A stretch of 35,356 nucleotides of DNA. Origin: Calothrix rhizosoleniae SC01 (GTDB lineage Bacteria; Cyanobacteriota; Cyanobacteriia; Cyanobacteriales; Nostocaceae). Position numbers and translations under genes: made by a program. How positions within the stretch are numbered: position 1 is the stretch's first letter; each line of letters opens with the position of its first letter. The notes under the pieces were generated by a model, which saw nothing but the letters and a program-made list of their open reading frames with translations, was not told the DNA's origin and made no database searches. The stretch covers positions 1-35,356 of the forward strand of contig NZ_FYBH01000031.1 of assembly GCF_900185595.1 (NCBI RefSeq), given 5' to 3'. Positions 6,183 through 35,356 of this stretch are shown here, in pieces.

Positions 6183-6791
6183 TCAAAGCCCTTGTAAAGC
6201 CATCCCTACTTGTACCGCCGGACGCTGTTCCATAGTTTCTATCCAGCGTTTAACATGGGGGTGGTCATCCAAAGCTAATCCCGAATACTGGGAAGCTGCT
6301 ACCCAAGGGAATGTAGCAATATCAGCAATGGAATAGTCCCCAGCAATATAATCTTGCTCTTTTAACTGTCCTTCTAAAACCCCAAACAGCCTTAGTACTT
6401 CCTTTTCGTAGCGATTGATAGCATAGGGGATTTTTTCCGGTGCTGACCTTTTAAAGTGACCTAATTGACCGAACATTGGGCCGACACTTGCCATTTGGAA
6501 CATTAACCACTCAATGAACCGAAAGCGATCGCTTATATTATCCGGCAACAATTTACTTGTCTTTTCTGCTAAGTAGATCAACATTGCTCCCGACTCAAAC
6601 ACAGTGATTCCCGCTTCTTGGTCAATCATCGCCGGGATTTTACTATTGGGATTGATGGCGATATATTCAGGGGTAAATTGCTCTCCCTTGGTGATATCAA
6701 TTTTGTGCAAAGTGTAAGGAAGTCCCACTTCCTCCAGCATAATGACTGGTTTGCGTCCGTTGGGAGTGGTAAAGGTGTAAAGGTCAATCAT
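6183..6791 (-). CDS. YfcG-like glutathione S-transferase (disulfide-bond oxidoreductase)
   Basis: 202 aa. The N-terminal thioredoxin-like domain starts MIDLYTFTTPNGRKPVIMLEE, with the TPNG active-site segment of the YfcG/YghU (nu-class) enzymes. The cis-Pro loop NPNSKIPAMID and the glutathione-binding FESGAMLIYLAEKT follow. The helical C-terminal domain has GPMFGQLGHF, IPYAINRYEKEV and the folding motif YSIADIATFPW. YfcG-type enzymes have little transferase activity and act as glutathione-dependent disulfide reductases. A ribosome-binding site (TTTGAGGAAAAACC, coding strand) precedes the ATG. A miniature transposon begins 24 bp upstream of the start codon and must lie in the promoter or 5' UTR. 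Confidence 0.92.
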   Translation of the reverse strand: MIDLYTFTTPNGRKPVIMLEEVGLPYTLHKIDITKGEQFTPEYIAINPNSKIPAMIDQEAGITVFESGAMLIYLAEKTSKLLPDNISDRFRFIEWLMFQMASVGPMFGQLGHFKRSAPEKIPYAINRYEKEVLRLFGVLEGQLKEQDYIAGDYSIADIATFPWVAASQYSGLALDDHPHVKRWIETMEQRPAVQVGMALQGL

Positions 6792-6815
6792 GGTTTTTCC
6801 TCAAAGGGTAGTATA

Positions 6816-6928
6816 AGTAGGTCGGCGTAAAAAATTATCGTTTGGATAAGGCAAGGAGCAGGGAGAACAAGGATTTTAGGCTTATTTACTTTTCTTCACA
6901 TAGTTTGGTTTTATTGTGCCGACTTACT
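6816..6928. mobile_element. MITE family 2, copy A (upstream of the glutathione transferase)
   Basis: 113 bp flanked by TA on both sides (6814-6815 and 6929-6930). The ends are AGTAGGTCGGC and, in reverse complement, AGTAAGTCGGC (one mismatch in 11 bp). Apart from heptamer copy number it is almost identical (about three substitutions) to the reverse complement of 31789-31915. The interior holds two GCAGGGA-type heptamers. It encodes nothing. TA target duplication is typical of IS630/Tc1-mariner-mobilised elements. Confidence 0.9.
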
Positions 6929-6992
6929 TAATTTTCGATTAAACTGGCGTACCTTGCTACTTGCTTTTATCCACTTAGAATCCCCTCGCCTT

Positions 6993-7083
6993 CAGGCAGT
7001 CCCGATGAAAAATAATTTGCACCGCCAATTACCTAAGTAGAATCTTCTTTTCCCCCTGCCCCCTGCCCCCTACCCCTTGCCCT
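6993..7083. repeat. Dispersed repeat family 3, copy 1, with adjoining heptamers
   Basis: 6993-7046 (reverse complement contains TTCTACTTAGGTAATTGG and TTTTCATCGGGACTGCCT) recurs at 30333-30383 and, more divergent, at 10510-10557. It is followed by CCCCCTG-type heptamers to about 7083. The whole interval 6929-7111 has no gene. Confidence 0.75.
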
Positions 7084-29218: not shown

Positions 29219-30310
29219 GTGTTTTCCCAGAAAGATGACTCTATTTTAGAAAAAACAAAATCATACTTATTGCAGCAAGTTGCAGTTTCCGCTAATCAAA
29301 TAGATAGCAGCTCAGAACAGCTATTTGCTGCATTGCAAGGTTTGGGAGATTTAGGTTTGCTTGGTTTGCGTTTGCCCCAATTTTGGGGAGGAAAAGAATT
29401 TCAGCAGCAAACCTTTAATGATTTTCTAGAACTCCTAGCCAGATACTCTGGCGCTTTAGCTTTCTTGCAAATTCAACATCAAAGTGCAGTGGGGATGATA
29501 GTTGCTAGCAGTAATTCCCATCTCCAGCAAAAATATTTACCCCATGTACAACATGGTAAATGTTTACTGGGTGTGGGTTTTTCTCAGTTACGCAGAACTG
29601 GGAAACCAACTATCACAGCCTTACCTGTAATAGGAGGATATGAATTAGATGGGGTTGTACTTTGGGTAACGGGATATGGTATGTTTTCCGAGTTTATCGT
29701 TGCTGCTACCCTCTCAGATGGTTCTGCTGTATTTGGGATTGTTCCTTTTCAAGAAAGCCATGCATTATCAACAGGGGCAAAAATTACCTTTTCTGTCCCT
29801 GCACAGCTAGCAGCTATGACATCAACTAATACAGTTAGTGCTACTTTCTCTCACTATTTTTTACCTGAAGAGCAAGTAGTTTTCATTAAACCTGCTGGTT
29901 GGATTCATGAAAATGACAAAAAGAATGTTCTGCGTGCCAGTTTTTTAGCTACAGGATGTGCAATGGCAGGTTTAGATGTGATTGAGGCAACATCACGGCA
30001 AAAATCTGTGCCATTTATTGTTGATGCTTTGAATGCTCTACAACAAGAACTGCATCAATGTCGCACCGCAATTCGAGAAGCACAACAAGATCCAGCCGGG
30101 GAATTGTCTGAAAAATTACATCTCAGGAGTTGGGCGATTGAATTAGCAAATCGCATTGCCCATGCAGCAGTTACCGTTTCTGGTGGTGCGGCTAACTATA
30201 GCCATCATCATGCCCAGCGTATTTACAGAGAGGCATTAGTATTTACTGTGACTGGGCAAACTACTGCGGTGATGGCAGCGACTTTGGAACAGTTGGTAAG
30301 AAGGGGGTGA
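29219..30310 (+). CDS. Acyl-CoA dehydrogenase-family protein
   Basis: 363 aa, starting at GTG because no in-frame ATG is available after the upstream stop at 29207-29209. The N-terminal helical domain has FAALQGLGDLGLLGLRLPQFWGG. The middle has LQKYLPHVQHGKCLLGVGFSQLRR and a beta domain. The C-terminal helical domain includes AGLDVIEATSRQ and AAVTVSGGAANYSHHHAQRIYREAL. The layout is that of acyl-CoA dehydrogenases, with the R-IYRE segment near the usual catalytic end, but the classical IYEGT motif is not seen. It may be a DszC/monooxygenase-like flavoprotein. Substrate unknown. The ribosome-binding site is weak. Confidence 0.78.
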   Translation: MFSQKDDSILEKTKSYLLQQVAVSANQIDSSSEQLFAALQGLGDLGLLGLRLPQFWGGKEFQQQTFNDFLELLARYSGALAFLQIQHQSAVGMIVASSNSHLQQKYLPHVQHGKCLLGVGFSQLRRTGKPTITALPVIGGYELDGVVLWVTGYGMFSEFIVAATLSDGSAVFGIVPFQESHALSTGAKITFSVPAQLAAMTSTNTVSATFSHYFLPEEQVVFIKPAGWIHENDKKNVLRASFLATGCAMAGLDVIEATSRQKSVPFIVDALNALQQELHQCRTAIREAQQDPAGELSEKLHLRSWAIELANRIAHAAVTVSGGAANYSHHHAQRIYREALVFTVTGQTTAVMAATLEQLVRRG

Positions 30311-30332
30311 ACAGAAGAAGCAGGGAGCAGGA

Positions 30333-30383
30333 AAAATTCTACTTAGGTAATTGATGGTGAAAATTTTTTCATCGGGACTGCCT
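30333..30383. repeat. Dispersed repeat family 3, copy 3
   Basis: ATTCTACTTAGGTAATTG and TTTTTCATCGGGACTGCCT match the reverse complement of 6993-7046. A GCAGGGAGCAGG heptamer pair (30320-30331) adjoins it. Confidence 0.75.
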
Positions 30384-30527
30384 CTTTGTGGCAAAACTCT
30401 AGTACTCTGACAAGGGAACTATGGCTGGTTAATTAATGAGAAGAAAAAGTTATTTTCTCCCCACACCTCCTACACTTCCCACACTCCCCCCTCTCCTCCT
30501 AACCAGCAAAGTTGGTGTGGTGGAATA

Positions 30528-31278
30528 CTAGTTTGAGCCACCTACTGTCACCACAACTATTTTGTCTGGGTAAATTAAATCCTTCGCAACCTGATTGACT
30601 TGCTCCCAAGTTACAGCTTGAATCTGATCAGGTGTTTGATGAAGAATTTCAGGTGGATGTCCAGATACTTGGTTGTTGAGAATAATGCTGGCTAAAACGT
30701 CAGGATCTTTCAAAGCAAGTTTATATGAACTGACTAAATTTTGTTTAGCAATTTCAACTTCCGCCTTGGTGACACCTTGCTCTCGTAAATTATTGAGCAC
30801 CTCCAGAGTACTACTAATAGCTTTGTTGGCATTTTTCGGCATTGTCTGCATTTTCATCACCAACAGTGTGGTATTCAACATCCCTGGGACTGGTTGCTTG
30901 TTTCGTCCGTTGAGTCGGTTGCAAAAAGCCCACCGTGCGATTGTTGGGATTCAGATATTTCTTCGCCACCCTTTGCACATCAGCCGCGCTGACTTTGTCA
31001 ATAGCTGCTAACAAACGGCTTGTATGACGATAGTTTCCCGCCGTTATTTGATTGTAACCCAGTAGAGTCGCTTGATTGGTAATATCTCGGTATTGTAGGA
31101 TATAGTCACCTTTTATTTGCCTCTTGGCGGCGCTAACTTGTTCCTCTGTCACCCCTTGAGTTTGTAAATATGCGATCGCTAACTGAAGAACTCGCTCAAT
31201 TCTTTCCAGCTTCCCATCTGAATTGGTTGTTACCCAGAGGATGTATGGTCCTCCATCGCTCGATAATGAATTGATTCG
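30528..31278 (-). pseudogene. Fused remnants of M16-family zinc peptidase genes
   Basis: Two frames read as M16 C-terminal ends. The first (31278 down to 30814) includes GGPYILWVTTNSDGKLERI, VTEEQVSAAKRQIKGDY and VQRVAKKYLNPNNRTVGFL, then leaves the family. The second (30881 down to 30528) includes ISSTLEVLNNLREQGVTKAE, IAKQNLVSSYKLALKDPDV and VNQVAKDLIYPDKIVVVTVG. Both lack the catalytic HxxEH half. Upstream the first frame meets a TAG at 31279-31281. The simplest reading is deletion that joined the C-terminal parts of two tandem M16 genes (such pairs are common), plus loss of everything upstream. Non-functional. Confidence 0.75.
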
Positions 31279-31291
31279 CTAACCTTCGATA

Positions 31292-32290
31292 CTAGACTAA
31301 AATAGTTGTCATTATTAAAGTTAGCTTAATAAAAAATTTATGATTTTTGCTTGCCAGATGACAAGCATTCAACCAACCATTTTTTTCATTTTCGCTTAAG
31401 CTATTGTGACTAACTAAGTATTCAGCACATTCAGATAATGAGTAGAAGATACAAGCTTTATGGAAGTCTCGGACTGTTCTTACATATTCAGTGATTGAAA
31501 TAACATTAAGATCAAGACTATTAGCAAGTTCAGTAACTTGTTTTCCAATGCTAGGATTTAGTATCCTATCTCTCTGCACATCAAGGATATTATTAGTAAT
31601 TGTAGAATATTCTTTCAGGTAAAATGTTTTTTCAATGTGTAGTTGTTCCCAGTCAGGCTCTAAAATCACTAAACGTCCACCTGGTTTAACAACTCTTTGC
31701 ATTTCTGCTAAAACTTTAATTGGATTTGCTATATGCTGAATTGACCGGATACAACGAGCAGCAGAAAAACAATTATCACTAAACGGTAAGTAAGTCGGCA
31801 CAATAAAACCAAACTATGTGAAGAATAGTAAATAAGCCTAAAACCCTTGTTCCCCCTGCTCCCTGCTCCCTGCCCCCTGCCTTATCCAAACGATAATTTT
31901 TTACGCCAACCTACTTAATTTCCGTCCATCAGCATAAATGAAACGGACATTTTTTATATTACTGTTTACAGTACGAGCTTCTGTAAGCATTCTCTCAGAA
32001 TTATCTATTCCATAAACAAAGCCATAAGGAGAAACTTTCTCTGCTATTTTTACTATGTCAAATCCTCTTCCACAACCGATATCAATTAGAGTATCCCCTG
32101 AATGAAGATTTAAACTTTTTACAGAGCAATCCATGTAATACTTTGTGAACGGATCTATTGATAGTGAATCCAAATAATCAATTAAATATTTTTGATTTTG
32201 GCTTGAGACATTATCAACCTTGTTAAAATCCGATAATATGTTGTTACTCAAATACTTATTATTTCCTTTGTAAGAATCTTTATCTGCCAT
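31292..32290 (-). pseudogene. SAM-dependent methyltransferase split by a miniature transposon
   Basis: The N-terminal part starts at the ATG 32288-32290 (weak AAGG upstream). It has the SAM-binding motif I LIDIGCGRGFD (about 68-78), GIDNSERML and FIYADGRKL, ending at residue 125. There the frame enters a 127-bp element and stops. The C-terminal part resumes in the same frame with PFSDNCFSAARCIRSIQH and KPGGRLVILEPDW and runs to the stop at 31292-31294. Removing the element plus one TA (129 bp) restores a 289-aa class I methyltransferase without any other change. The substrate is unknown. The frame is also open upstream to 32494, but that part is probably non-coding sequence running up to the IS end. 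Confidence 0.9.
31789..31915. mobile_element. MITE family 2, copy B (inside the methyltransferase gene)
   Basis: 127 bp with ends AGTAAGTCGGC and AGTAGGTTGGC (reverse complement), flanked by TA duplications at 31787-31788 and 31916-31917. It is in opposite orientation to copy A at 6816-6928. It holds four GCAGGG(G/A) heptamers where copy A has two, which accounts exactly for the 14-bp length difference. Outside the heptamers only about three substitutions separate the copies. Confidence 0.93.
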
Positions 32291-32571
32291 GATAGAAACC
32301 TTAAAACGTAAGAAGGTTATAACTATCTGGAGAAAAGAGATAATATAAAATCTGCTCAGATTAAGTGAGTGTGAGCAATAAACACGCAGAAAAGTACGAT
32401 AAGGACTATAGTAATTAACTCGTTTGGGGATCAGACCTCTTAAATCCTTGCAGCTTGGTTTCAATTTTCTGTACCAAATATATACTACTTTCATTTATAT
32501 AGGAATCATATTTGATTTCTGAAAAAAGCTACGAGATAATACGGATAAATACATCTGTCTAACAGCGAACA

Positions 32572-33629
32572 ATGATAAGTCAGGATCTACAAGCGGCGAT
32601 CACAGAACTACAAGAATTTATAGATCATCGCCCAGATGCCCGTGAGGTGAGGAAAGCTTTGGCAGTGAAACTGGTTTATCAAGGGTACAAGTATGAGGAA
32701 ATTCAAACGATTTTAGATGTGTCCCTTGGTTCGATAACAAGCTGGAAGCAGTCCTACAAAGAATATGGAATTTCAGGATTGCGATTAAATCATAAAGGAA
32801 GAAAAGGTTACTTGAGGGATGAACAACGAGAAGAAGTATTAAGTTGGTTGCAAACGAAAGATACCTGGGAGCTTGGGGAACTGGAATACAAATTGGCATT
32901 TGAATATGAGGTAATCTACGAATCGAAACGAAGCTATTACGATTTATTTGACGCGGCGGGAATTAGTTGGAAGAAAACTACATCTTTGAATCCAAAGGCT
33001 GACCCTGAAGCTGTTGCTGCAAAAAAAAACAGATTGAAACATTGTTGGCAAGCAACCGAGAAGAAATCGAAGCAGGAAGGCTTAGAGTATTACTAATAGA
33101 TGAGTGTCATGTGCTATGGGGGGACTTAACTGGTTATGTTTGGGGAAAAACTGACCAAGAAATAGCAGTTGAAGTCGTTAACGAACGAGATAAACAGACA
33201 TACTACGGGGCGGTTGATTATCTCACTGGCAAGTTACTTCTTAAAGCTTACAAAGCTGGTAATTCAGACTATACAATTGATTATTTACGTTATTTATTAG
33301 ACCAGTCTCCCAAGCAACGATTACTGATTTTTTGGGATGGTGCTTCTTACCATCGTTCACATCTGGTTCAAAACTTTTTAGGCGAAATTAATCATGGTTT
33401 ATCTCAAGAGCAATGGAAAATTCACTGTGTCCGCTTTGCTCCTAATTGCCCATCACAAAATCCGATCGAAGATATTTGGTTACAAGCAAAAACCTGGGTT
33501 AGACGTTTTTGCGCTTTAATTCCAACATTCTCTCATTTAAAGTGGATGTTTGAGTGGTTTATCCGAAACACTAACTTTGATTTTGTATCTCTCCAGATGT
33601 ACGGTGTTTTTTCTGAAATCAAATACTAG
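32572..33629 (+). CDS. IS630-family transposase, needs a -1 frameshift
   Basis: Two overlapping frames. The first (32572-33096, 174 codons) holds an HTH region (LVYQGYKYEEIQTILDVSLG, SITSWKQSYKEYGISGL). The second carries the DDE catalytic core: first Asp in LLIDECHVLWGD, second Asp in IFWDGASYHRS and Glu in NPIEDIW, ending at 33629. A shift of -1 at the nine-A run 33021-33029 joins them as ...DPEAVAAKKKQIETLLASN..., in good family agreement. This is either programmed slippage or a mutation. The fused protein would be about 351 aa, normal for the family. Confidence 0.92.
33021..33029 (+). other. Slippery A9 frameshift site in the transposase
   Basis: Nine A followed by C. The upstream frame reads GCA AAA AAA AAC and the downstream frame AAA AAA AAA CAG, so a one-base backward slip joins the halves. 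A-runs of this kind cause both ribosomal and transcriptional slippage. Confidence 0.8.
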
Positions 33630-33685
33630 TCCTATATAAAGAAATAAATACATTAGAACAGAGTATTCTAATTCATAGAGGAGAA

Positions 33686-34345
33686 ATGATGGGAGTTCAA
33701 AAAATTATTCCCAAAATGTCTGCCCAGGCTCTATTAGAGATTATCGTAGAATCAGAACCAGAAGATGTTTGGTTTTTTGGAACACATTTTAATATGAATT
33801 TATCATACAGCCAGGAATTGTTTATTCAATTATTACAAAAACAATCTAGATTATTTTTTTTGATTACAAATCCTTTTGATAAAACTTCTATTGACTTTCA
33901 AGCTAAAGGCTTTGGGATTAAGAATAAAAACCTTTATAAAAATTGTCGTGATGGTATTTTTAATTTTCTCCAACTAATGAAACAGTGGCAAGAGATAAAT
34001 GATACTAATAAAAACTCTGAATATCACACTAAAATTATAGTAAAAATTTCCAGTAATTTACCTCGTACGAGAGCCTATATTGTTGACATTAAGAATCCAA
34101 ATGCTACTAGTGATATTATTCCTTACATGAATAATATCACAGCACGCGAATCTCCTATTTTTGCTTCTAATAATTCTCTGGAAAGCCTTTCTTTATTGCA
34201 GTTCAAAGGTATTGAAGAGGAATGGAGAAAGGATCAAACTAGGTATCTTCAGGATTACATTAAAGAATCTAATGGATTCAAAGAGATTCTTCACGAGTCA
34301 GCATATAACGATTTTTTAGATAAATATCCTAAACCAAATATATAG
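33686..34345 (+). CDS. Uncharacterised protein, PLD/DUF5919-like pattern
   Basis: 219 aa; no confident family. GAGGAG precedes two adjacent ATG codons. The pattern VWFFGTHFNMNLSYSQELFIQLLQKQSRLFFLITNPFD (a hydrophobic strand, polar loop, helix, then strand ending N/D-P) and, later, RAYIVDIKNPNATSDIIPYM and QFKGIEEEW resemble DUF5919-like and phospholipase-D-like proteins, which act or bind at phosphodiesters. No HKD motif is visible, so catalysis is unproven. It lies just right of the IS630 element, which separates it from the broken methyltransferase. Confidence 0.6.
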   Translation: MMGVQKIIPKMSAQALLEIIVESEPEDVWFFGTHFNMNLSYSQELFIQLLQKQSRLFFLITNPFDKTSIDFQAKGFGIKNKNLYKNCRDGIFNFLQLMKQWQEINDTNKNSEYHTKIIVKISSNLPRTRAYIVDIKNPNATSDIIPYMNNITARESPIFASNNSLESLSLLQFKGIEEEWRKDQTRYLQDYIKESNGFKEILHESAYNDFLDKYPKPNI

Positions 34346-34671
34346 CTACATAAATCTTAACATATTTGTCAATGTTCAATCATTGAATATCTCAAATATT
34401 TATGTATATAGCAATTTAAAAATCATCTTAAAGTTGTTTAATCACAGCATTTCTAATTATTTTTATCTGATTCATTGATGGTTCAGTGAATCACAATTTA
34501 TACAATGCTTACAACTAATAAATAAGAGGTACATTGAATTAATAATAGTTTACTAAGAATAAATGAAAATAGAAAATATATTAGCCGGAGTTTATAATTT
34601 GAGCAGTTGTGTTTCTGAATATGAGGCACGAAACTAATCACAGTTGTAGTTAGACAAGGAGCATCTAAATA
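34346..34671. other. AT-rich intergenic stretch
   Basis: 326 bp between the PLD-like gene and the small membrane protein. No gene, RNA or repeat could be supported. Confidence 0.5.
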
Positions 34672-34863
34672 ATGCAAATCCATAATTTTGATACGCAAGT
34701 ATTTATAGAAAATCAGATCATTGAAATCCCCACAGTTAATCAAGGAACTAATTCTCAAGTGTCACATATCATTACGCCATATGACTATCTAAATTTAGTG
34801 CCAGCCATTATTGTGGCTTTAACGCCATTACTATTAGCTTTAATCAAATCACGGAAAGAGTAA
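34672..34863 (+). CDS. Small single-pass membrane protein, 63 aa
   Basis: The polar N-terminus MQIHNFDTQVFIENQIIEIP is followed by one hydrophobic helix (about 40-58, LNLVPAIIVALTPLLLALI) and a basic end KSRKE. AAGGAG (34656-34661) about 10 bp upstream supports translation. No family recognised. The tail arrangement resembles that of the 43-aa open frame at 11577-11708, but without sequence similarity. Confidence 0.55.
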   Translation: MQIHNFDTQVFIENQIIEIPTVNQGTNSQVSHIITPYDYLNLVPAIIVALTPLLLALIKSRKE

Positions 34864-35356
34864 AAAGGATATTTTTATTCTTATTATCTTAAAAACAGAG
34901 CTATTATAGGGGTCAATCAGTGATAGTTGTAACTATCCCACCACAATAGAATTAATTCTTTACCTGTTTTGCCAAATGACTTTTAGTTTTTAGAATTGTC
35001 CCATAGCAGTTTTCCACGAATGTGGTTTTTATTACGGTGTTGGGAGTGTACGATTTTTTATTTTTAAGACAAGATGATATTGTCTACTAAATCACTATAA
35101 GCAAAGTATCGCAAACATAACTAAATACTATATTGCGTTATTTTTATTGCAGATAAGACAACGTTTTAGGAGTCGTTTAAAATCAACTTGATAAAGTGTG
35201 TTACCAAACTATAGGCAATTCAGGAGATTTCAAGGGTTTAATTGCTACATTTCTTATCGTGGTTTACTGCGCGGTTACTACTCAAACTCCGAAAACTTGA
35301 GGTGTGATATGGGGAGGATAGCAATACTGAATTATTGTTAGTGCTTTGCTACTAAG
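34864..35356. other. Gene-free right end
   Basis: 493 bp with stops in all frames. The only structure noted is GATAGTT-GT-AACTATC (34922-34937), a 7-bp inverted repeat. No transposase remnant was recognised. Confidence 0.5.

Follow-up and report, generated by a model that had tools for sequence, protein, structure and literature searches.

A gene for a predicted methyltransferase of Calothrix rhizosoleniae SC01 is divided into two parts by a short repeat, which raises the question of what separated them and whether a mobile element is responsible. The window considered here is the entire stretch of DNA analysed, 35,356 nucleotides of contig NZ_FYBH01000031.1; the coordinates of its features are compiled in Table 1. 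Including both TA copies the repeat measures 131 bp, and without them 127 bp, in agreement with the first-pass annotation, which had described a 127-bp element with a TA duplication. The net insert amounts to 129 bp, or 43 codons, and keeps the reading frame. We consider it very probable that the gene was split by insertion of a non-autonomous IS630-type MITE which was moved in trans during a recent burst, leaving a pseudogene.

Table 1. Positions of the interrupted gene, the inserted MITE and related features in the window
Feature	Position	Strand	Remarks
MITE with both TA target-duplication copies	31787..31917	+	One of 46 byte-identical genome copies
TA copies flanking the MITE	31787-31788 and 31916-31917		127-bp element between them
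Left terminal inverted repeat	31787..31807	+	16/21 positions equal to right repeat, TA included
Right terminal inverted repeat	31897..31917	-	16/21 positions equal to left repeat
G-rich heptad array in the MITE	31844..31877	-	Fits the G3+N1-7 G-quadruplex pattern
Methyltransferase gene, 5' part (SAM-binding half)	31918..32290	-	Codons 1-124 and first base of codon 125
Methyltransferase gene, 3' part	31292..31786	-	164 codons and stop
Copy A, same MITE family	6814..6930	-	117 bp; orientation opposite to the 31787-31917 copy
Neighbouring IS630-family element, two ORFs	32494..33640	+	Own 34-bp terminal repeats

Both parts of the gene match the same Pfam profiles, with positions 2–66 and 66–123 of Methyltransf_31, 1–54 and 54–95 of Methyltransf_11, and 35–111 and 110–163 of Ubie located in the 5' and the 3' part, respectively. 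Judged by the continuity of these profiles across both halves, the interrupted gene is a class I SAM methyltransferase. Matches to NCBIfam models (ArsM-like, UbiE-like, and others) all fell below the cut-off, so that a substrate is not assignable. The probable start of this minus-strand gene is the ATG at 32290; a further in-frame ATG is present upstream, at 32494. The TA target lies in codon 125, preceded by 124 codons and one base, and it is here that the Pfam profiles meet, as expected from the proposal that the gene was split at this codon, immediately after its SAM-binding half. Removal of 129 bp indeed restores the predicted 289-aa protein (124 + 1 + 164). The interrupted gene, despite the insert length being a multiple of three, encounters its first stop at codon 130, and the 129-aa product ends inside the MITE; the early stop that had been annotated is thus real. 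Elsewhere in the window (30528–30881), a 117-aa frame which matches only the end of the M16 peptidase inactive domain is perhaps a decayed gene.

Searches for a close orthologue of the methyltransferase gave none in the own genome and 58 relatives (best same-genus match, 46% over 50 aa), none in genome_contigs (three loci only, 38–51%), none in 387 other genomes of the order (13 matches at E ≤ 1e-8, 26–37% identical), and none among 24 plasmid records, all of which were below 60%. When window positions 30300–35300 were searched at the DNA level in six relatives, the matches were to the MITE, to the IS beside it and to small repeats, and none among the matches listed covered the methyltransferase gene outside the MITE. 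Since no close orthologue was found, the gene looks accessory. No orthologue carrying an empty site emerged from these searches either, and the evidence at the methyltransferase gene itself therefore consists of protein continuity together with the empty sites of two sister copies.

We also looked for homologues that carry the MITE sequence as ordinary coding sequence, and the proposed insertion withstood this comparison. At 22 loci examined, 24 ORFs matched the N-terminal half, seven of which also matched the C-terminal half (E 0.01); the other 17, including all three genome_contigs relatives, had no C-half match at this threshold. The closest N-half relative, from a Bacteroidales MAG (51% identity over part of the sequence), likewise had no C-half match at E 0.01. 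Nine further loci, out of the 13 matches in genomes of the order, brought the number of homologues matching both halves to 16. These are distant (about 25–47% identity) and not orthologues; 14 of them have between zero and three extra residues at the junction, and one (L208) has eight. The remaining one, a 334-aa methyltransferase (L095) of genome G043, shows 39 extra residues near the MITE junction; the element search of 59 genomes gave no match to the MITE in G043.

With a length of 127 bp and all six reading frames closed, the MITE is short and has no coding capacity. The plus-strand frames reach a first stop at codon 1, 2 or 6, those of the minus strand at codon 1, 2 or 5. Its predicted G-quadruplex pattern lies on the minus strand, which is the coding strand of the interrupted methyltransferase gene. 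RNA hairpin scores of the two strands correspond to z values of -2.5 and -2.3, as the terminal repeats would give. G-rich heptad arrays of the MITE-core type also occur free-standing, outside MITEs, at positions 1979–2076 and 7049–7083 of the window. Copy A lies upstream of a GST-like gene (6183–6791, minus strand), its end being 22 bp from the start codon, and could influence the expression of that gene.

The assembly contains at least 89 distinct copies of the MITE with both ends, representing 18 sequence types. This number was obtained by reading 88 stretches and is a lower bound, more diverged copies not having been sought, and overlapping contig ends could carry one copy twice. Byte-identical to the MITE of the window are 46 copies; further identical groups comprise 21, four and four copies. 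In a first search, at least 40 of 456 loose candidates had already been scored as copies, each of them 100% identical over its 131 bases. At up to two mismatches, 94 left and 94 right ends were detected in the genome, as compared to no match for the reversed control pattern of either end; 84 left and right ends pair up, 72 of the pairs at exactly 131 bp. Given the empty controls and the number of copies, the MITE is not a chance pattern. Some family members are shorter or longer by multiples of seven (117, 124 and 138 bp versus 131 bp), and the number of heptads is invariant among the 46 identical copies. Because even the repeat core does not vary, the 46-copy type looks recent. This supports the recent insertion claimed in the first-pass annotation, for which the best evidence is the 46 identical copies rather than copy A, whose near-identity had been cited there along with the intact reading frame; copy A is 117 bp long, with two heptads fewer and a few substitutions. 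From the identity of the copies, the MITE may well be mobile at present.

Of the 59 genomes searched, the own genome included, 37 matched the MITE somewhere, in many cases with one end or the heptads alone. The best full-length match in two same-genus genomes was 91% identical, among 14 candidates scored in each, and the 46-copy type looks specific to this lineage. In the flanks of 88 copies some positions are poorer in G than the background, and no strong signal of a preferred target beyond TA was seen. An exact search of viral_contigs with one left-end pattern, addressing carriage by phages, gave no match. One copy (L056, G000:C207:14546-14957) has in turn been interrupted by a second short element, which is flanked by an apparent 8-bp direct repeat, AGTAAATA; the nested insertion forms a 412-bp composite.

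Empty sites were found for another gene of strain SC01. A DUF3352 gene (G000:C182, 6481–7340) carries two copies of the MITE, which belong to different subgroups, and its three pieces match the profile at positions 2–65, 85–276 and 295–536. In contig C299 of the same-genus genome G002, the corresponding DNA (80–85% identical) is continuous at both sites. Adjacent alignment pieces share exactly two bases, and G002 has one TA at each site where strain SC01 has TA-element-TA, as expected for a TA target which is duplicated on insertion and which flanks the MITE of the window at both ends.

To what extent other genes are affected was estimated from the 80 copies flanked by 450 bp or more of sequence on each side. 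Of these, 33 (18 of the identical type) lie within a frame that spans 150 codons or more and is open on both sides, not all such open frames being genes. Random TA sites in the flanks of the copies fell within such frames in 2261 of 3229 cases; open frames are thus struck by the MITE less than by chance, but still often. Such a deficit is what one would expect if broken genes were selected against or if the MITE preferred intergenic DNA. Pfam profiles were compared piecewise for 14 other genes among the 33 candidates, namely ten of the 17 other genes struck by the identical type and four struck by other types, as well as for the second site of the DUF3352 gene. In seven of the 14, one family occurs on both sides of the MITE (Condensation, DUF3352, EAL, ACR_tran, FecCD, Na_H_Exchanger, and TPS). 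Another gene (L007) has isoamylase-type domains, with different families on either side; five (L137, L143, L024, L016, and L170) have a Pfam family on one side only, and L139 has none on either side.

The split could be false if a short-read assembler had joined the flanks of different copies of the identical 131-bp repeat. The draft consists of 472 contigs and breaks at repeats, and some copies are located at contig ends (C153:1-131, C188:13-143), as such an artefact would have it. However, the two flanks of the MITE encode successive halves of a single methyltransferase in one frame, and the profile matches of one half adjoin those of the other. Even in an assembly that breaks at repeats, this speaks against a misjoin. 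Seven other struck genes also continue across the MITE, and genome G002 has two such sites empty within one continuous gene. A misassembly at this locus is hence extremely improbable.

We regard it as very unlikely, too, that the MITE is domesticated cargo which acts as a regulated or phase-variable switch, the gene being turned on again by a change in the number of heptads or by precise excision rather than being dead. The net length that is a multiple of three, the variation of some family copies by sevens (117, 124 and 138 bp, compared to 131 bp) and the predicted G-quadruplex motif would fit such a role. Nevertheless, the heptad number is constant in the 46 identical copies, and the copies of the family are spread over many unrelated genes. 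Moreover, the first stop lies at most six codons from the entry end in every frame, and since the stops precede the heptads, a change of heptad number cannot reopen the frame.

The preferred reading, a MITE insertion that inactivated the gene, calls for a transposase acting on the ends of the MITE. These ends match those of an IS630-family element (L100:2501-3676) on plasmid pUHCC0315a of Dolichospermum sp. UHCC 0315A, with 87.5% identity over 48 bp on the left and 84% over 25 bp on the right, and have the sequence TAAGTARGTCGGC in common with it. The plasmid element is 1176 bp in length, and its annotation includes HTH and IS630 transposase frames, whereas the MITE is non-coding and has the heptad core in their place. 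Left ends with 85–94% identity to the initial 48 bp of the MITE are also present in genomes G007 and G024, shortly before a frame starting with MGARLRVFLT, and in contig C165 of G007 the frames following the left end match the transposase of the plasmid element. By the similarity of its ends, the MITE is a putative non-autonomous derivative of an IS630 (Tc1/mariner-like) element.

A transposase of this type was sought in the own genome of strain SC01. The DNA pattern that matched in G007 and G024 was not found there, nor did a query with the N-terminal part, a search run without a positive control, reveal one; with the DDE part, the best own match was 28% identical, compared to 76–84% in G007, G024 and G049. 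The assembly has 12 matches to the IS630 profile, none of which is bounded by MITE-type ends in the flanks examined. Besides the MITE of the window, these flanks contain a single end-like site, an isolated left end that has one mismatch and is located some 1.3 kb away from a transposase fragment in L216. An autonomous partner in the same genome, which is usual but not essential for a MITE, was thus not detected in this draft assembly, which can miss one. The adjoining IS630-family element was ruled out as the driver, its terminal repeats being different. The transposase of this neighbouring element (window 32572–33629) is divided between two frames close to nine consecutive A (33021–33029), which suggests a frameshift mutation or programmed slippage. 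As no matching transposase was found, the driver of the MITE has been lost, is unassembled, or acted from outside.

The following sequence of events would account for the locus. A transposase recognizing ends of about 20 bp presumably moved the non-autonomous MITE in trans, and the MITE would have entered a TA in codon 125 of the methyltransferase gene, with duplication of this TA. Owing to the stops in all six frames of the MITE, the gene would yield no more than a 129-aa fragment without the remainder of the methyltransferase domain. It would be a pseudogene formed by insertion, and the function of the enzyme would probably be lost. The event would belong to a very recent burst from which the 46 identical copies arose. 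A more far-reaching version appears less likely than not: the MITE would have reached dozens of identical copies and split many genes in a genome without a transposase for it, the enzyme having acted from outside, from a transient plasmid or an element since lost, and each copy would also have seeded a G-quadruplex heptad array.

MITEs within broken genes have been described for other Nostocales. A report on Anabaena sp. 90 lists 147 complete or partial MITEs, 15 of them within disrupted ORFs, and its authors state that no IS with matching ends is present in that genome and call the MITEs type II (PMC3542288). Inactivation of the microcystin cluster by MITEs in Anabaena strains is cited in a review (PMC10969869). 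The likeness of the Anabaena sp. 90 elements to the present one is a matter of description only, both being Nostocales MITEs in broken ORFs; in strain SC01, the copies form byte-identical groups, and the 33 open frames are candidates for disruption. Likewise, Nezha is cited as a cyanobacterial MITE with 'novel active' in the title of its description (Zhou et al. 2008, as cited in PMC3733652, PMC10969869, and PMC3049150), and its mobilization by ISNpu3-like elements has been proposed, as cited in PMC3049150; it is likened to the present MITE by description, not by sequence. As MITE-broken genes of Nostocales are already in print, the event at the methyltransferase gene is of a known kind, and the burst stands out as unusually recent, widespread, and without a visible driver.

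G-rich heptamer repeats able to form G-quadruplexes were reported to be abundant in Nostoc, with GGGGA(C/T)T units that according to this report are generally not found associated with mobile elements (Rehm et al. 2015, PMC4692102). The heptad of the MITE, in contrast, is a different unit, and it lies inside the element and is copied along with it. With identical copies, same-genus empty sites, a gene struck twice and many split genes, strain SC01 offers a natural snapshot of a bacterial MITE burst. Such data allow MITE-driven gene loss in cyanobacteria to be measured, and raise the question of how a MITE spreads with its transposase out of sight. The heptad core, finally, could provide G-rich heptamer repeats with a concrete means of spreading in Nostocales.
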